Source: Acidimicrobiales bacterium
GTDB lineage: Bacteria; Actinomycetota; Acidimicrobiia; Acidimicrobiales; MedAcidi-G1
DNA length: 40,075 nucleotides
NCBI GenBank assembly: GCA_030748555.1
Contig: JASMLT010000011.1
Coordinates: forward strand, 1 to 40,075
Reading direction: 5' to 3'
How positions within the stretch are numbered: position 1 is the first letter of the stretch; every line of letters begins with the position of its first letter. The notes beneath the pieces are model-generated. The model saw nothing but the letters and a program-made list of their open reading frames with translations, searched no databases and was not told where the DNA came from. Made by a program: the position numbers and the translations under genes. This document shows, one piece after another, positions 19,290 through 28,264 of this stretch.

Positions 19290-19682
19290 TTGATCTCAGA
19301 TGAACGTTATGTGAGTCTTTCAACTTGGACAAACGATGGAAATCGTAAAAGAACACCGGTTTGGATTGCTTTATTGGATGACGGTCGAGTTTGTTTCACA
19401 ACTGGCAAAAAGACTTGGAAAGTCAAGCGTATTCTTAGAAACCCGAGCGTTGAGCTTCAACCTTGCAATTCTAGAGGTGCGCTTAATAACGATTCACAAG
19501 GTTGCGAGGGTGTAGCGAGCGTAGTTGATGCGGATGAAAAAGAATACATACTGATTGAAGAAGCGATCCGCAAAAAGTATGGGATTCAAGACATGTTGGT
19601 TAGTTTTTTTGGTCAATTTTCAAAAAAATATGGCGAGGGTTGTGGAATAGTTATTTCCTTGGAGAAAGACACATTTTCTTAG
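19290..19682 (+). CDS. PPOX-class flavin/F420-dependent oxidoreductase
   Basis: A split-barrel flavoprotein of about 130 aa. RYVSLSTWTNDGNRKRTPVWIALLDDG followed by VCFTTGKKTWKVKRILRNPSVEL is the pattern of the pyridoxamine-phosphate-oxidase-like family that in actinobacteria often binds F420. Substrate unknown. The open frame extends back into groEL, but that part is the shadow of the chaperonin tail. A TTG at 19290, one base after the groEL stop, is my chosen start; there is no good ribosome site, so coupling to groEL is likely. It overlaps the convergent Fe-S subunit gene by 4 nt. Confidence 0.75.
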   Translation: MISDERYVSLSTWTNDGNRKRTPVWIALLDDGRVCFTTGKKTWKVKRILRNPSVELQPCNSRGALNNDSQGCEGVASVVDADEKEYILIEEAIRKKYGIQDMLVSFFGQFSKKYGEGCGIVISLEKDTFS

Positions 19683-20548
19683 TTTTCTGGATGGGCATGT
19701 TGCCAACCGAATCGACCTTTAATACACAGGTGACCTTCTGTAACAGAGTGATCTGATGGCGATGTCACTTTGACAATCTTTTCATCTTGAGTATGTAATT
19801 CTAAGTTGCAACCAACTCCACAAAAACCGCAAATAGTCTCAGTAACTTTTTGATTGTCCGGATCCCAAGAATTTTCTTCCCGCATATCATGTTCAGTTTT
19901 AAAAACCAGAGCACCCGTAGGGCAAACCCCTATGCAATTACCACAGTAAACACAAGCAGAATCTGGCAACTCGGCATCAAACTCGGTTGAGATGCGTGCT
20001 TCAAAACCACGTCCTGCAGTAGCTATCGCAAAAGTGTGTTGAGCGTCGTCACCGCATGCTTCAACGCATTTGTAACAGAGAATGCATCTTTCATAGTCTC
20101 GAACGTAAAGATCATCTTGAATTTTGACTGGTTGTTTAGATGTTTTAATTTCGCTTGAATTTCCCATACGGTCAGGGTTCGAACCGTAAGAAGTAATCCA
20201 TCCACGGATTTCCTTGTCTGCCCTGTCTAGTTCAACTGATGAAGCCAGTAATTCCAAAACCATCCGCCTGCTGGTATTTACCCTTTCAGAGTCGGTTGAG
20301 ATCACCATGCCTTCTTCTATTGGCCGGGAACATGATGGGACTAGTGCTCTAGATCCTTCCACTTCGACTACGCAAACTCTGCATACGTTAACCGGAGTTA
20401 AATTCTCCGCCCAGCAAAGCGTAGGGGTATCAATATTGGCCTGCTTGCAGGCATCTAAAATTGTTGAGCCTTCAGGTGCTGAAATTTTTTTGTCGTTGAG
20501 GGTGATCTCGACAAGTGTTTCAGAAGGGTTTTTTGCAGGTTCGCTCAT
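19679..20548 (-). CDS. Formate dehydrogenase Fe-S subunit (split-off N-terminus of FdhA)
   Basis: The 289-aa protein corresponds to the N-terminal third of NAD-dependent FdhA. It has a plant-type [2Fe-2S] domain (C45, C56, C59, C73), two ferredoxin-type [4Fe-4S] clusters (C155/158/161/165 and C199/202/205/209), and the Fe4S4 cluster site of the molybdopterin domain (C240, C243, C247, C275) followed by IKGRFGW. It stops after HPEN, exactly where normal FdhA would continue into the catalytic part encoded at 22328-24220. Its job would be electron relay between the Mo/W site and the NuoEF subunit. The ATG at 20548 overlaps the preceding stop by one base (TAATG); an upstream extension in this frame only shadows that gene. 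Confidence 0.87.
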   Translation of the reverse strand: MSEPAKNPSETLVEITLNDKKISAPEGSTILDACKQANIDTPTLCWAENLTPVNVCRVCVVEVEGSRALVPSCSRPIEEGMVISTDSERVNTSRRMVLELLASSVELDRADKEIRGWITSYGSNPDRMGNSSEIKTSKQPVKIQDDLYVRDYERCILCYKCVEACGDDAQHTFAIATAGRGFEARISTEFDAELPDSACVYCGNCIGVCPTGALVFKTEHDMREENSWDPDNQKVTETICGFCGVGCNLELHTQDEKIVKVTSPSDHSVTEGHLCIKGRFGWQHAHPEN

Positions 20549-22335
20549 TATTGGGTTTCCAAAAGTCCTAGATTTAAAGCGGACCGAATCGCCGATGCTG
20601 CAGTATGACCTAAACCACAAATCGAAGCATCAGACATCACGGAAGCTAAGTCATCGAATAATGATATGTCAGCCTCAACTGGATTCTTATCAGCAATTCG
20701 GATTAGTAGTTCTTCCTGTCTGACTGTTCCGACCCTGCAAGGCACACATTGACCGCATGATTCATCACGGAAAAATTCAGCTATGCGTAGAACAGTTTTT
20801 GTCAATTCATCCTCATCGCTAAAAGCCATTATTACCCCTGAACCCAAAGCAACCCCAGCCTCACGAGTATCTTCGAATGTTAGAGGCAGATCAATTGATT
20901 CTGGAGTTACAAAACTACCTGCTGCTCCACCAAGGAGAATTGCTTTGAGAGTCCCAGGCCCCGAGAAACCACCTGCAGCATCCAATATTTCGCCTAGAGT
21001 CGCACCAAATTCAAATTCGTATAGGCCGGGGAGCGCCACTCTTCCACTTAAGCAGAAAAGTCTGGTTCCTGAAGACTGATCGGTTCCTTCAGCAGCGAAA
21101 GTTTCCCCACCATTCAAAATTATCCGAGGAATATTTGCCAAGGTCTCAACATTGTTAACCGCTGTTGGTTCATTGAACAGGCCATTTGTGGTAGGAAAAG
21201 GTGGTTTGTTGCGTGGTTCCCCCCTAAATCCTTCTATTGAGTTAAATAATGCCGTTTCCTCACCGCAAATATAAGCGCCTGCACCGCTTCTAATTTCAAT
21301 GTCAAATTTTCTGCCGGAACCTAAAATATTGTCTCCTAGCAATCCAGACTTTCTAGTTTTCCCAATGGCTGCGGTTAAACGTTGTCTAGCGATTGGATAT
21401 TCACCCCGGATGTAGATCCATCCTTTTTCTGCGCCTATGGCGAGACCAGCTATAGTCATTGATTCGATCAAAGCGAAAGGGTCATTCTCCATCAGAACTC
21501 GATCTTTAAAAGTTCCTGGTTCTGATTCATCAGCATTACAAACTAGATGATGCGCCCTGCCTTTTTCATCTGCTACAGCTTTCCATTTGACTCCTGTTGG
21601 GAAAGCGGCTCCTCCTCTGCCTCTTAAACCCGACTTTGAAACTTCTTCGATTATTTGTTCATCTCCCATTTCAAGAGCTTTTTTGAGAGCCTCATAACCT
21701 CCATGAGACTGATAATCTTCAAGACTATTTGGGTCTAAGACTCCAACTCGAGTAAGCAGACGCAAACTATCAGATCCAGCCTGCGGCAACTTAATCGATT
21801 CTTTTTCTGAATTTTCAGTTAAAAATTTACCGATATGTTTCAGATCAGCGTCAAACACAACAGTATCTTGTGAGGCTATTCGCTGAACAAACACAGCTGG
21901 TCCTCGCTCACACTGGCCTAAACATGGACTTGGTTTAGTTTCGTGTCCTTCTTTTTTCAAGGCATCAATCAGGTCATTAGCCCCATTGAGGCTGCACGCT
22001 ATGTCATTACATACATGGAGTATTTGATCTCCGCTGGGTGGTTGGGAGGAGAAGAGATGGTAGAAAGTTGCCACACCATAAGCTTCAGCAGGTGGAATTT
22101 CCAGGACACGACAGACGTAATCCAGACCACCTGGGCTAATCCAACCGGAAGTATGTTGTAGTGCATGAAGAGCTGGTAACAGAAGGTGTCGACGTTCTTG
22201 AGTACGTTGCCGGCCAGCATAAACAAGCCGCTCTGTTATCTCTAGAGTTACCGGTCCATGCGACTCAATTGTCTCATCTACAGCTTTTTTCTCACTGTCA
22301 GTGGGTAGAGAAGTACCAAACTTTATGTCAGGCAT
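20548..22335 (-). CDS. fdhB: Formate dehydrogenase NADH-binding subunit, NuoE-NuoF fusion
   Basis: The 595-aa fusion begins with a NuoE-like thioredoxin-fold [2Fe-2S] domain (cluster residues in CNDIAC and PCLGQC, about 105-150). It continues as NuoF from about residue 190: GLRGRGGAAFPTGVKW, the NADH/FMN site NADESEPGTFKDR, and AYICGEETALFNSIEG, ending with the [4Fe-4S] site ESCGQCVPCRVGT. It matches the beta subunits of soluble NAD-dependent formate dehydrogenases, which pass electrons from formate to NAD+. It overlaps the catalytic subunit gene by 8 nt and the Fe-S subunit by 1 nt. Complex I genes are absent, which supports the FDH assignment. Confidence 0.92.
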   Translation of the reverse strand: MPDIKFGTSLPTDSEKKAVDETIESHGPVTLEITERLVYAGRQRTQERRHLLLPALHALQHTSGWISPGGLDYVCRVLEIPPAEAYGVATFYHLFSSQPPSGDQILHVCNDIACSLNGANDLIDALKKEGHETKPSPCLGQCERGPAVFVQRIASQDTVVFDADLKHIGKFLTENSEKESIKLPQAGSDSLRLLTRVGVLDPNSLEDYQSHGGYEALKKALEMGDEQIIEEVSKSGLRGRGGAAFPTGVKWKAVADEKGRAHHLVCNADESEPGTFKDRVLMENDPFALIESMTIAGLAIGAEKGWIYIRGEYPIARQRLTAAIGKTRKSGLLGDNILGSGRKFDIEIRSGAGAYICGEETALFNSIEGFRGEPRNKPPFPTTNGLFNEPTAVNNVETLANIPRIILNGGETFAAEGTDQSSGTRLFCLSGRVALPGLYEFEFGATLGEILDAAGGFSGPGTLKAILLGGAAGSFVTPESIDLPLTFEDTREAGVALGSGVIMAFSDEDELTKTVLRIAEFFRDESCGQCVPCRVGTVRQEELLIRIADKNPVEADISLFDDLASVMSDASICGLGHTAASAIRSALNLGLLETQ

Positions 22336-24220
22336 CGATCATTTTCTCCACACGGATTGCTGCAGCTTTGAATTCGGCGGTGCCTGATTTCAGGTCGTAA
22401 GCACTATTTGTCAATTGGTTTACATCTACCAACTCTGGGAAATGAAAGGTTGTGAAGGCGAGACCTAAAGGAAGGTTAGGATCAATTTCGACTGTCATTT
22501 CAACACTTCCCCGACGAGATGAGACTATGACTCTTTCACCTGTTGAGATGCCGAGTTTTTCAGCATCCGCAGTAGAGACTTCTAAAGCTTCTCCAGTTCG
22601 AATTGGAGAGTTGTATTTACCAGTTTGAACTCCCGTGTTATATGAATCCAAAGCTCTACCTGTGGTTAAGCGCAAAGGATAATTGTCATCCAGCGACTCG
22701 ACCGGAGGTCGATCGTCTACACAGGAGAATGGTGCAAGTCGTCCCTCGGCTGGTTGTTTCCAAAGCCGGTCATGAAGAAACGGACTTCCGGGATGGTTTT
22801 CGTCAGGGCATGGCCATTGGATACCACCCTCGTTTTCAATTCTTTCCCAAGACATCCCAGCATGCATAGGTGAGACAGTCCGCAACTCTTCCCAAAGGTC
22901 TTCAGCTGTTGGTTGGCCCCAGCTGTTATCACCTAAATGTCTAGCCAAGTCAGAGATTATTTCAATTTCCTGACGTGCATCACCTGGTGGTTTAATAGCT
23001 GCTCGAGTCCGTTGAACTCGACGTTCACTGTTGGTTACAGTTCCGTCAGATTCCGCCCAACCAAGTGCAGCAGGTAGTACAACATCAGCCATTTCAGCTG
23101 TACGGGTCATGAATACGTCTTGAACCACAAGAATGTCAAGACCTTCCAATGCTTCGCGTGCATGGTTCACATCAGCTTCAGAATCTGCTGGATTTTCACC
23201 GATGACATACAAGGCGCGTAGCTCTCCTCGTCCCATTGCGTTAAACATGTCGGTAAGATGCCAGCCTGGTTCCGGTGGTATTTCAGAGCCCCAGGCGGTT
23301 TCGAATTTGACTCTTATTTCCTCATCAGCCAAATCCTGAAATCCAGCGAGTTTATTAGGTAAAGCTCCCATATCACCGCCGCCTTGAACATTGTTCTGAC
23401 CCCTCAATGGAACCAATCCAGAGCCCCAACGGCCCACGTGGCCAGTCAAAAGAGACAGATTGCAAAGCGCGAGAACATTATCGACTGCCGTATGATGTTC
23501 GGTTATACCCAGAGTCCACATGATCTGAGCTTTTTCAGCATTTGCATAGCCATGAGCTAGATCACGTATTGCTTCTACAGGCACACCAGTTGTCTCGGAA
23601 GTTCTTTTCAAGGTCCATGGTTCAACGTGAGCGGCAAAATCTTCAAAACCCGTAGTTGCATTCGCAATAAATTCTTTATTTTCCAGGCCAGCATCAATTA
23701 TTTCATGAGCTACGCCATTGGCGAGAGCGATGTCACTGCCGACATTAATGCCTAACCACACGTCAGCAAATTTTGCTGAGTCGGTTCTTCTGGGATCCAC
23801 AGCCCACATCCGAGCACCGTTTGACAATCCCTTTAAAAGATGGTGGAAGAATATCGGGTGAGCAGTCCGAGCATTTGAACCCCAAAGAACAATGGCATCT
23901 GTTTCTTCAATTTCTTTATAAGAGGAAGTTCCTCCTCCTGCTCCGAACACTGTCGCCAGACCGACGACACTAGGGGCGTGTCAAGTTCGATTACAACTGT
24001 CGATATTGTTTGAACCGATTACTTTTCTTGCAAATTTTTGTGCTGCGTAATTGACTTCATTGGTTGTTTTGGAACAACTGAACATTCCAAAGGCATTGGA
24101 TCCATGCGAATTAACCACAGATTTAAAACCTTCAGCGGCTTTGCTCAGTGCTTCTTCCCAGGTGCATTCACGAAGTTTTCCGTTTTCTTTAATCCTCGGC
24201 ACAGTAAGACGTTCAGTCAT
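22328..24220 (-). CDS. fdhA: Selenocysteine-containing formate dehydrogenase catalytic subunit
   Basis: Two frames (24220-23984 and 23980-22328) are one 630-codon gene joined by an in-frame TGA at complement 23981-23983, codon 80. The flanking residues NNIDSCNRT-U-HAPSVVGLATVFG match the conserved Sec/Cys active-site region of formate dehydrogenases. A SECIS-like hairpin with a GGUCU loop follows after 11 nt. The rest is the Mo/W-bis-MGD catalytic body (VLWGSNARTAHPIFFHHL, GITEHHTAVDN, LRGQNNVQGGGDMG) and the C-terminal molydopterin-dinucleotide-binding domain (LRLTTGRALDSYNTGVQTGK). It oxidises formate to CO2. The usual N-terminal Fe-S domains are missing and are encoded by the third subunit gene. 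GGGGAAA precedes the ATG. Reading through requires SelB and tRNA-Sec, not in this window. Confidence 0.9.
23951..23983 (-). promoter_or_regulatory. Selenocysteine UGA codon with bacterial SECIS-like hairpin
   Basis: On the minus strand the UGA (23983-23981) is followed by 11 nt and then TGTCGTC-GGTCT-GGCGACA (23969-23951). The two arms pair over 7 bp with one U-G. The GGUCU apical loop and the 11-nt spacing match, from memory, the E. coli fdhF SECIS that binds SelB. Confidence 0.85.
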
Positions 24221-24256: not shown

Positions 24257-25450
24257 TTACTCATTCGAAGAAGAATTGAGTATTTTTTGTCTATTTCTCC
24301 GTTCAATCATCCGGATAGAAGACCAAAGTTCATCACGTTCTATGTAGCAGCCATAAAGGTGTCTTTCACCAGTAGAAGAATCGAATGAGTCTCTGGCATG
24401 CAATAATCGGCGATTGTCAAAAATTAGACACTCACCTGGCTCCAGTCGAAAACGTAATTTAAAACGGTCATCCTGATTGAGTGTCTCGAACAACTGATAT
24501 GCCCTATACATGGGTTCTATAAGATCAAAATCAACTTGCAGAGGAACACGCAAGAAGTTACCAACTCTAACTTCTTCAATTTTTCCATCTTTATCTAAAT
24601 GAATCATTGGAGTTTTCCAGCGGTAATCAGTGATGGTGCTGCGATTACCAAAGTCCCATGGAACCGAGGTAAGCAATTCAAAGGTTTCAGGTTCTTGTGA
24701 GCGAATTTCCTCAGCTACACGAAAACCATCAACCAGAATTGACTCTCCTCCTATCACAGAATTCTTCAGGCAATGAAGCAGTTGGAGTCCAGGTTGATAC
24801 TCGCGCGTAGGCAGATCGGTATGTGGAGGAAGCTCAATCTCGGTGTAAGCAGCTGTGTCCGGTCCAGTTTTTGCTTCTACGTCAAAGAAAAGACCAAAAT
24901 TAGTTTCCCTAACCACACCTATTCGTTCTGCAACTTGGATTAGACCATTTTTCGAAGGTTCTACATTATGTGTGATACAACATCCAGCTTCAACTATTGA
25001 ACAAAGCCATTCTCTTTCGATTTCCGGGTCGGAAATAATTTCTTTCCAATCGAAGCGATCCGGTCCTTTCTTAGTTTTAGCATCCCACGTAACAGGGTCG
25101 GGAAAAGTTTTTATTGATAAATCCAAACAGTGAGCTCGAAGCCAACCGGGGTGGAAACAACTTGTATGTGATTCTCCTGACCAGATGGTTTCTAAGAAAC
25201 CTTCCTGAGTTGTAGACACAGATGAAATAAGCAGGTCATTCGGAATCGAGACCACATTGAAGATAGGTTCTCGCGTGTCTGGATGAACACAACAGGGGCA
25301 GTTGTCTCTTAACCAAAGAAAGTGAAATTTACTTAGATGGCCGTCATCCCATCTAATTTCGACTTTTTTCCCATCGGTAGAAGAATCAACAATGTGGTGT
25401 TCTACCGGATAGAAATCGAAATCTCCTGTTTCAATCACTTCCTTCATCAT
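24257..25450 (-). CDS. Gamma-butyrobetaine dioxygenase-like TauD/TfdA enzyme
   Basis: The 397-aa protein joins an N-terminal GBBH-like/DUF971 domain (WLRDNCPCCVHPDT, Cys51/53/54) to a Fe(II)/2-oxoglutarate dioxygenase domain. The iron ligands are H210-x-D212 in ELPPHTDLPTREYQPG and a distal His in RRLLHARDSF. This is the architecture of gamma-butyrobetaine hydroxylase, which makes L-carnitine, and of trimethyllysine dioxygenase; the adjacent carnitine dehydrogenase favours the former. The N-terminal Cys spacing is C-x-C-C rather than the C-x-C-x2-C I know from the family. The start is ATG 25450 (ATG 25447 possible), overlapping the upstream gene by 20 nt; a longer frame to 25474 lies inside that gene. 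Confidence 0.83.
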   Translation of the reverse strand: MMKEVIETGDFDFYPVEHHIVDSSTDGKKVEIRWDDGHLSKFHFLWLRDNCPCCVHPDTREPIFNVVSIPNDLLISSVSTTQEGFLETIWSGESHTSCFHPGWLRAHCLDLSIKTFPDPVTWDAKTKKGPDRFDWKEIISDPEIEREWLCSIVEAGCCITHNVEPSKNGLIQVAERIGVVRETNFGLFFDVEAKTGPDTAAYTEIELPPHTDLPTREYQPGLQLLHCLKNSVIGGESILVDGFRVAEEIRSQEPETFELLTSVPWDFGNRSTITDYRWKTPMIHLDKDGKIEEVRVGNFLRVPLQVDFDLIEPMYRAYQLFETLNQDDRFKLRFRLEPGECLIFDNRRLLHARDSFDSSTGERHLYGCYIERDELWSSIRMIERRNRQKILNSSSNE

Positions 25451-26399
25451 TTGTGTCTTTCTCTGAAGTTTCAATATTCAAGTTTTTAATTGTTTGGATG
25501 ATCGCCGTAAGTCCCTTATCACGCTCAATTACCAGGTCAGCTACGGATCTGCCAGCTGCTTCTTCTGAGCAGCCGTCTACAACTGCATTTCTAAGATGTT
25601 CAGTTAATTCTGGAGCCTCTAATCTGGTCCAAGGCGATTGAAGTGAAGGTCCGAAATGGTCAAGCATATGAGCCATGCCACCCTCACCTCCGGCCAAATG
25701 AAATGTAAGCATCGGCCCCATCAAAGCCCATCTCAGGCCAGGTCCGGCAGTGATGGACAGATCCAATTGTTCTACGGTTGCCTCTCCGTTGGCTACCATA
25801 TGCAATGCTTCACGCCACATTGCTTCTTGAAGTCGATCAGCTATAAAACCGTCAATTTCCTTCTCGAGACGCAATACCGTTTTCCCTGAATTCGAATAAA
25901 TACCCTCAGCTCTATCCATAGTGGATACTGATGTTTGAGGTCCTGCCACAAGCTCTACAAGTGGCAGCAGGTAAACAGGGTTAAATGGATGTCCCACCAC
26001 AACTCGTTCCGGTGCAACCGAACAGTGTAAAGCTAGGTCACTTACTAAATAGCCTGAGGTTGATGATGCTATTACACAATCAGTGGTACAAGCTTTGTCA
26101 ATAGTGGAAAGAAGTTCTTGTTTCAATTCAAGTCGTTCAGGAGAGCTTTCTTGAACCAATGAACAGTTTTCAACAGCTTCTTCGATTTTTTTATGGAAAA
26201 CCACAAGATCTGGAGAAGCTCCCTTTGCTAGACCCAGTTTCTCCATCGAAGGCCAGGCCTGTTCGATTGTTCTTTTAAACAGGTCTTCTGATTTTGAATC
26301 AGGATCCCAAGCATGCACTTCGATGCCTTGACCAGAAAAATGTGAAGCCCAACCGCAACCTATTACACCCATGCCAATACAGGCGATTGATTCACTCAT
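25431..26399 (-). CDS. L-carnitine 3-dehydrogenase-like enzyme (3-hydroxyacyl-CoA dehydrogenase family)
   Basis: The 322-aa protein has the NAD-binding GxGxxG (G9, G11, G14 in IGMGVIGCGWASHF), the family's catalytic-His motif VVGHPFNPVYLLPLVELV and a C-terminal 3HCDH domain containing EIDGFIADRLQEAMWREA. PVYLLPLVE and AGPGLRWALMGP are characteristic of the carnitine dehydrogenase branch, which oxidises L-carnitine to 3-dehydrocarnitine, rather than fatty-acid enzymes. It lies 27 nt after the BKACE gene and overlaps the dioxygenase gene. The fused thioesterase domain seen in some carnitine dehydrogenases is absent at this length. Confidence 0.85.
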   Translation of the reverse strand: MSESIACIGMGVIGCGWASHFSGQGIEVHAWDPDSKSEDLFKRTIEQAWPSMEKLGLAKGASPDLVVFHKKIEEAVENCSLVQESSPERLELKQELLSTIDKACTTDCVIASSTSGYLVSDLALHCSVAPERVVVGHPFNPVYLLPLVELVAGPQTSVSTMDRAEGIYSNSGKTVLRLEKEIDGFIADRLQEAMWREALHMVANGEATVEQLDLSITAGPGLRWALMGPMLTFHLAGGEGGMAHMLDHFGPSLQSPWTRLEAPELTEHLRNAVVDGCSEEAAGRSVADLVIERDKGLTAIIQTIKNLNIETSEKDTNDEGSD

Positions 26400-26426
26400 C
26401 AGAAAATTTTGAAAATAACAGTATTT

Positions 26427-27308
26427 TCATTTTAGGTTAAGTGTTTCTCGAGCTTCATCTGGCGACTGGATTGAAGCTCCCATTAGTTCGATGATCTTTA
26501 CAGCTTTTCTAACGAGGTCGGCGTTTGTGGCCAGTACACCTTTTTCCAGGTACAAATTGTCTTCAAGTCCGACTCTTACGTGACCTCCAAGCATCACTGA
26601 TTGTGCGACCATCGGCATTTGCATAGCTCCTAAACCGAAAGAAGTAAATTCTGTGCCTTCTGGTAGCCGATTCACCATTGCATAAAGGATTCCGATATCC
26701 ATAGGCGTTCCATACGGGATGGAGAGACACAGTTGTATCCAGAAAGGAGGGTCAAGTAGCCCTTCAGCGATCATTGTTTCAGCAAACCAAAGATTTCCGG
26801 TATCAAAAACCTCCAGTTCAGGACGTACACCCAGACTCCTGACTTTTTGGGTCATTTCTCTGAGCATCTCTGGTGTTGAGACATAGACCTCATTAGTGTC
26901 ACCAAAGTTCAGTGAGCCGCAGTCCAGTGAACAAATCTCAGGTCGTATTCTTTCTACATGCTGTAGTCTTTCTTGCGGTCCCACAAGATCTGTTCCTTCT
27001 CCAAAATCCATTGGGTCGTTGTTAGGACCGATAACCAAATCTCCACCCATACCTGCGGTTAAATTTATGATCACTTGACTATCTTTTTCTCTTATCCTGT
27101 TAACTACTTCTTCGTAGTAGTCCGGATTTCTTGACCCTTTTCCAGTTTCTGGATCCCTAACATGGCAATGGACAATTGTGGCACCTGCTTTTGCGGCCTC
27201 GATAGCAGAATCTGCGATTTGTTCAGGAGTCACCGGTACGTGTTCACTCTTGTCGGTTGTGTCACCTGCACCAGTGATTGCACACGTGATTATTACATTT
27301 CTATTCAT
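26427..27308 (-). CDS. BKACE/DUF849 beta-keto acid cleavage enzyme, likely for 3-dehydrocarnitine
   Basis: BKACE enzymes use acetyl-CoA to cleave beta-keto acids. The zinc ligands HCH (residues 47-49 in IVHCHVRDPETGKGSR) and the C-terminal GLEDNLYLEKG are diagnostic. Some subfamilies cleave 3-dehydrocarnitine, giving acetoacetate and a betaine-CoA product; adjacency to carnitine dehydrogenase makes that the likely substrate here. The 293-aa start at ATG 27308 is fixed by the strong AGAGGGGG site just upstream; a frame reaching 27437 runs through the promoter palindrome and is rejected. It is the first gene of the six-gene minus-strand operon. Confidence 0.87.
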   Translation of the reverse strand: MNRNVIITCAITGAGDTTDKSEHVPVTPEQIADSAIEAAKAGATIVHCHVRDPETGKGSRNPDYYEEVVNRIREKDSQVIINLTAGMGGDLVIGPNNDPMDFGEGTDLVGPQERLQHVERIRPEICSLDCGSLNFGDTNEVYVSTPEMLREMTQKVRSLGVRPELEVFDTGNLWFAETMIAEGLLDPPFWIQLCLSIPYGTPMDIGILYAMVNRLPEGTEFTSFGLGAMQMPMVAQSVMLGGHVRVGLEDNLYLEKGVLATNADLVRKAVKIIELMGASIQSPDEARETLNLK

Positions 27309-27393
27309 TTTCCCCCTCTGCTTTAATACTTTTAGGCTAAAAACGGAATATGAGCAATTTGCTAGAGAATAGCTTTGAAACGCTGGTATTTGT

Positions 27394-27437
27394 TTGTCAA
27401 AGACATATAAAAAAGTAATTTTATGTGTCTTTGACAA
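27394..27437. promoter_or_regulatory. Large palindromic operator between the carnitine/FDH operon and fdhD
   Basis: TTGTCAAAGACATATAAAA (27394-27412) and TTTTATGTGTCTTTGACAA (27419-27437) are inverted copies, 18 of 19 bp plus one G-T, around a 6-nt centre. Each arm contains its own small dyad: TGTC-AAA-GACA (27395-27405) and TGTC-TTT-GACA (27426-27436). Their centres are 31 bp apart, about three helical turns. Each box also contains an outward-reading TTGACA, a perfect -35 hexamer. The site lies in the divergent promoter region, suggesting a dimeric regulator controlling both directions. Confidence 0.7.
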
Positions 27438-27478
27438 TAGTGTTTATTCAAACATTGCTATCTATTTGGAGGAAAATC

Positions 27479-28264
27479 GTGACCGCTCGTGGCAGAACAG
27501 TCAAAGTTTTTACCGAAAAAATAGAATCTGGAGAAAGCCAGCGGGTTCCAGATGAAGTGATCGTTGAAGAGCCGATCTCTATTCGACTTGATGGAGAACT
27601 CATAGGTACCACTATGCGGACCCCGGGAAATGATTTTGAACTCGCAGCAGGGTTTTGTCTTACTGAAGGTCTACTTCATGAAGCAAAGATTAAATCGATT
27701 CGATATTGCGGGCAGTCAACTGCATCGGAAGCGGAATTTAATGATGTAACCGTAGATACAGATGGTCTTGCTCCGAAGCCAGTTGCAAGACTTGGACCAG
27801 CTTCGTCGTCATGTGGAATTTGTGGAGTCGAAGCTATTGAAAATCTTTTGAAGTCTTTAGAGCCTTTAGTTTCAGAAGCTTTTGACATAGATACTCTTAC
27901 TTCTGTCGCGGACAACATCCAAAAAGAACAAGATCTTTTTGGAGCAACTGGTGCTGTTCATGCCGCAATGGCTTTTGACCGATCTGGTAGGAGCATTGTC
28001 ATTCGTGAAGACATAGGTCGGCATAATGCCGTTGACAAGATTGTAGGACATCTTTATTTGGAGGATTCCCTACCAGCAAACGACATGGGTCTTTGGGTGA
28101 GCGGTAGAGCTTCTTTTGAGATGGTTCAGAAAGCTTGGGCCGCAGGTTTCGCTTGTTTGATTGCTGTTAGTGGACCGTCAGCACTTGCGGTGGACACCGC
28201 AAAGGCAGCAGGATTGCAATTAGGTGGTTTCGCTCGTGAGAACCGGATCAATCTTTATTCTTAG
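27479..28264 (+). CDS. fdhD: Formate dehydrogenase sulfurtransferase FdhD
   Basis: FdhD passes sulfur from a cysteine desulfurase to the Mo-bis-MGD cofactor and is required for FDH activity. Diagnostic parts are PISIRLDGE, TPGNDFELAAGFCLTEGLL, the conserved Cys loop SSCGICGVEAIENLL (about residues 118-132), ATGAVHAAMAF, and REDIGRHNAVDKIVGH. The length is 261 aa. GGAGGA at 27468-27473 places the start at GTG 27479; the longer frame from 27425 begins inside the promoter palindrome. It is divergent from the FDH operon it serves. Confidence 0.95.
   Translation: MTARGRTVKVFTEKIESGESQRVPDEVIVEEPISIRLDGELIGTTMRTPGNDFELAAGFCLTEGLLHEAKIKSIRYCGQSTASEAEFNDVTVDTDGLAPKPVARLGPASSSCGICGVEAIENLLKSLEPLVSEAFDIDTLTSVADNIQKEQDLFGATGAVHAAMAFDRSGRSIVIREDIGRHNAVDKIVGHLYLEDSLPANDMGLWVSGRASFEMVQKAWAAGFACLIAVSGPSALAVDTAKAAGLQLGGFARENRINLYS

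Follow-up and report, generated by a model that had tools for sequence, protein, structure and literature searches.

A split formate dehydrogenase with a predicted UGA-encoded selenocysteine in an Acidimicrobiales genome

The window, by which we mean the whole stretch of 40,075 nucleotides analysed here from an Acidimicrobiales bacterium (contig JASMLT010000011.1), carries the genes of a predicted formate dehydrogenase (FDH) on its minus strand and a maturation gene on its plus strand, with the following features.

22328..24220, minus strand: catalytic (Mo-bis-MGD) part of the FDH alpha subunit, 630 amino acids if UGA is read as selenocysteine (Sec), closing at a TGA stop
23981..23983, minus strand: in-frame UGA, codon 80, predicted Sec, aligned with Sec140 of E. 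coli FDH-H, the TGA being conserved
23951..23969, minus strand: SECIS-like hairpin with a 7-bp stem and a GGUCU apical loop, 11 nt past the UGA, supported by near-zero synonymous entropy, compensatory stem changes and absence of the loop in Cys variants
20548..22335, minus strand: NuoE-NuoF fusion (diaphorase; FMN, NADH, Fe-S), 595 amino acids, with a start that overlaps the last 8 nt of the catalytic gene
19679..20548, minus strand: separate N-terminal alpha-subunit protein, 289 amino acids, with 2Fe-2S, ferredoxin-like clusters and a C-terminal Molybdop_Fe4S4 domain bearing the LCIKG lysine
27425..28264, plus strand: FdhD, the sulfurtransferase needed for FDH maturation, assigned by domain matches and divergent from the cluster

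The minus-strand frame from 24220 to 22328 is interrupted by one internal stop only, the TGA at 23983-23981, and closes at a terminal TGA at 22330-22328. It had been proposed from the letters alone that the internal TGA joins two halves of one gene, the first ending in NNIDSCNRT and the second being HAPSVVGLATVFG; when the frame was re-read, the coordinates, both peptides and the length of 630 residues all proved right. The read-through product matches the Molybdopterin and Molydop_binding domain profiles, corresponds in a strong match to positions 51-672 of the Fdh-alpha model TIGR01591 and aligns to residues 59-690 of E. coli FDH-H (1AA6). The UGA of codon 80 is aligned with Sec140 of E. coli FDH-H, with Sec (written X) in 9T1S and with Cys in the HDCR FdhF (7QV7), bearing out the earlier statement that FDHs hold Sec or Cys at this position. 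The motifs UH at residues 80-81 and R273-G274-Q275 are invariant, giving the Sec/Cys-His pair and the RGQ that mark Mo/W FDHs, and the motif set is that of class I of PMC8808070.

The identification as an FDH held for the catalytic part, but not for a whole alpha subunit, the N-terminal Fe4S4 domain being encoded by another gene. This domain lies two genes downstream, past the NuoE-NuoF fusion, in the 289-residue protein, which combines Fer2_4, ferredoxin-type clusters and Molybdop_Fe4S4 (PF04879 at residues 234-285, the domain ending in LCIKG). The C-terminus of this protein corresponds to positions 1-49 of TIGR01591, and against FdsA (6TG9) the 289-residue protein aligns to residues 24-303 and the catalytic chain to residues 317-931. 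The proximal [4Fe-4S] domain and the conserved lysine are thus found in the partner and not in the 630-residue chain, so that only the complex of the two holds the full set. At the level of these domain matches, the predicted split of the alpha subunit is already settled.

The three genes are tightly packed, with the NuoEF ATG inside the catalytic gene and a TAATG junction between NuoEF and the Fe4S4 protein, where the ATG overlaps the preceding TAA. The order catalytic gene, NuoEF, Fe4S4 protein is found in every locus of the split clade with enough flanking sequence, and the layout is common to many bacteria, the loci including metagenome-assembled genomes (MAGs) labelled Gemmatimonadetes, Acidobacteria, Rokuibacteriota, Spirochaetaceae, Archangium and Planctomycetota, labels which can be wrong. 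In the examined enzymes whose identity does not exceed 55%, the Fe4S4 domain is fused, and a fully supported, starred branch of the tree sets all split sequences (a clade of 44 rows) apart.

Within the same GTDB family, 48 genomes yielded 46 full-length copies, the least similar at 73% identity, and every one of these has the TGA, as do 80 of the 80 best loci of a scan of named genomes (97 to 64% identity), for which the Sec column was left out of the search patterns. Among named relatives, Acidimicrobiaceae and Microtrichales MAGs come closest, most of them marine judging by isolate name. At least the catalytic gene is also present in a cultured relative, Ilumatobacter nonamiensis (L141). In one genome of the same genus as that of the window (G006), the Sec gene is present in full twice (G006:C17 and G006:C8), each copy being 97% identical to that of the window, which perhaps reflects two strains in one bin.

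The hairpin was described beforehand as a 7-bp stem with a GGUCU loop starting 11 nt after the UGA, and both structure and spacing are as claimed, the stem being UGUCGUC/GGCGACA with one U-G wobble and GGUCU closing it. The E. coli SECIS stem has a bulged U, which the window hairpin lacks. Among 96 distinct coding sequences, synonymous entropy averages 0.77 over the gene and lies between 0 and 0.04 at codons 85-89 (GTC GTC GGT CTG GCG), and the lowest 6-codon windows of synonymous entropy in the catalytic gene all overlap these codons. Of the 96 sequences, 95 to 96 can form each of the six inner stem pairs, and 95 have the GGUCU loop. Wider sampling yielded compensated stem changes, from C-G to G-C in two loci (L189 and L191) and from G-C to A-U in L162 as well as in L184-L186, Sec enzymes of the fused type that are more distantly related. 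The resemblance to the E. coli fdhF loop, to which the sequence-only reading had pointed, extends to the offset: counted from the first UGA base, GGUCU has an offset of 21 nt in both. The fdhF sequence used for this was verified in E. coli genomes, and the element published for E. coli is ggttgcaggtctgcacc (PMC3834832). The folding energy of the window hairpin is nothing unusual against dinucleotide shuffles (z = 0.58), its stability is not singled out against synonymous shuffles, and an Rfam scan around the UGA returned chance matches only. Since the folding energy alone is unexceptional, the support is evolutionary and not thermodynamic, and it is this comparative evidence which indicates that the hairpin is real.

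Natural variants were found among 396 genomes of the phylum, where the high-identity clade consists mostly of TGA copies and includes four stop-free full-length copies (L179-L182) from one genus with genomes of 6-10 Mb. These encode the split FDH with TGC or TGT at the Sec column and form one nested clade in the tree. None of the four keeps the GGUCU loop, and at least one inner stem pair is broken in each, making them a natural Sec-to-Cys comparison inside one enzyme class. A selA match above the cut-off occurs in one of the four genomes (G416) and not in the other three; G416 retains selA though its split FDH no longer needs Sec.

It had further been predicted that this lineage keeps selA, selB, selC and selD, and this was found for the family, whereas the draft assembly of the window genome itself, about 70% complete, yielded selD alone. 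Across the 48 family genomes, selA was detected in 45, selB above the cut-off in 43 and tRNA-Sec in 42. The selD gene of the window genome (L015, G000:C22:68972-69895) has an in-frame TGA of its own in HGAG(U)GCK, which we take to be the known Sec/Cys position of SelD, so that its product is itself a predicted selenoprotein. No match to selA, none above the cut-off to selB and no tRNA-Sec were found in this roughly 70%-complete assembly, which is best read as assembly gaps.

The eight best tRNA-Sec candidates below the cut-off in the window genome are ordinary tRNAs according to ARAGORN. The best selB-model match there, a 408-residue frame below the cut-off, is probably EF-Tu, since such frames are the second selB match in most family members. 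A second tRNA-Sec match barely over the cut-off (about 49 bits, 88 nt) occurs in nine genomes (G024, G028, G030, G031, G032, G033, G039, G044 and G046) and may be another tRNA.

The interpretation of codon 80 as UGA-encoded Sec, which this comparative evidence supports, has to be weighed against two other accounts of the stop. An error of sequencing or a pseudogene as the source of the TGA, with the gene broken or in truth encoding Cys, would fit with the draft state of the assembly and with the mechanical ORF listing, where the catalytic gene appears just as a 540-residue fragment from a GTG start; yet the protein is otherwise intact and strongly conserved, and the identical TGA in independent family genomes and in the best named loci already refutes this account, to which we give practically no credence. 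Decoding of the UGA as another amino acid, by a suppressor tRNA or a code in which TGA is Trp, could appeal to the missing selA, selB and tRNA-Sec of the window's own assembly. The family genomes do have all three, however, known FDHs have Sec or Cys in this column, the GGUCU loop is gone where Cys replaces Sec, and an ordinary TGA terminates the same frame, making such decoding extremely improbable.

A different objection concerns the partner protein, which might belong to another enzyme, leaving the 630-residue protein to function without a proximal [4Fe-4S] cluster, and the NuoEF gene does stand between the two genes. Against this, the three-gene order is conserved and the genes overlap in the window, the Fe4S4 domain and the catalytic protein match consecutive parts of one single model, TIGR01591, and no second FDH core lies within the window, so that we consider separate enzymes very unlikely. 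Because the two genes co-occur in a conserved order, and overlap with their neighbours in the window, we infer that the Sec/bis-MGD and Fe4S4 polypeptides must form one active site.

We are highly confident in predicting that the window enzyme is a cytoplasmic NAD-linked Mo (or W) FDH with Sec as metal ligand and an alpha subunit split over two chains. SelB on the hairpin would deliver Sec-tRNA-Sec to the UGA, and the Sec would ligate Mo/W, where formate would be oxidised, the electrons presumably passing from the [4Fe-4S] cluster through the ferredoxin-type clusters and FMN to NAD+ in the NuoE-NuoF fusion. The single active site would be assembled from the Sec/bis-MGD chain and the C-terminal [4Fe-4S]/lysine domain of the second chain. 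E. coli FDH-H requires Lys44, a residue close to its [4Fe-4S] cluster, for its active structure (PMC12176258); the split places the lysine and cluster needed there onto another protein, the partner would supply the counterpart of Lys44, and the assembly of an active site from two chains is therefore directly testable. More broadly, it is probable that these enzymes are a monophyletic class of Sec FDH, with an active site made of a Sec/bis-MGD chain and a chain bearing the [4Fe-4S] cluster and essential lysine, a fused diaphorase, a history of spread through Actinomycetota and, going by the labels of MAGs, several further phyla, and a single switch to Cys within an actinobacterial genus with large genomes.

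The domain set of the window enzyme is that of the FdsABG-type NAD-dependent FDHs (Rhodobacter capsulatus, 6TG9, and Cupriavidus), namely 2Fe-2S, ferredoxin clusters, Fe4S4, bis-MGD core and NuoE- and NuoF-like diaphorase, but the division into chains differs: FdsABG has the alpha subunit in one chain and NuoE and NuoF in two, whereas the window has alpha in two chains and NuoE-NuoF in one, with Sec in place of the Cys of FdsABG. E. coli FDH-H (FdhF, 1AA6) shares with the window enzyme the Sec at the aligned position, the distance from UGA to loop and the GGUCU loop itself, but holds the Fe4S4 domain within its one chain and belongs to formate hydrogenlyase.

The closest described system is FDH3 of Actinomycetospora chiangmaiensis DSM 45062, which the main text of its study presents as a cytoplasmic Sec enzyme, predicted to be NAD-dependent, with three subunits of 640, 614 and 316 residues, all seen by proteomics, in an organism whose formate removal depends on selenite (PMC7176365). 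The accessions of the A. chiangmaiensis proteins are WP_084681743, WP_018332443 and WP_018332444. The window subunits have 630, 595 and 289 residues, and the host of FDH3 belongs to another class of Actinomycetota. On these published features the two appear to be of the same type, likened by subunit number, lengths and predicted function and not by sequence, and because subunit number and lengths match, the window system would be a known kind of Sec FDH. The main-text passages covered here make no mention of the Fe4S4 domain being divided off (PMC7176365). It was the only study returned by our literature search for split Sec FDHs, and no paper discussing a split FDH active site was found, most subscription journals lying outside the search. 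The reading of UGA as Sec in FDHs is well known; the split catalytic core is little discussed.

Taken from genome sequences, the results point to selenium-dependent formate oxidation family-wide in a mostly marine group of Acidimicrobiia, encoded by genes that are easily overlooked by gene callers halting at UGA. Acetoanaerobium noterae (L195, NZ_CP154629.1, listed in the plasmid collection at 2.6 Mb) also has a distant FDH that combines TGA with a GGUCU hairpin; the public annotation has no feature in this FDH stretch.

Directly upstream of the FDH genes, at 24257-27437 on the minus strand of the window, lies a carnitine-type cluster encoding gamma-butyrobetaine-dioxygenase-like, L-carnitine-dehydrogenase-like and BKACE proteins, and a cluster of this type is near the FDH in close relatives as well. 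Glycine betaine demethylation could be a source of formate.
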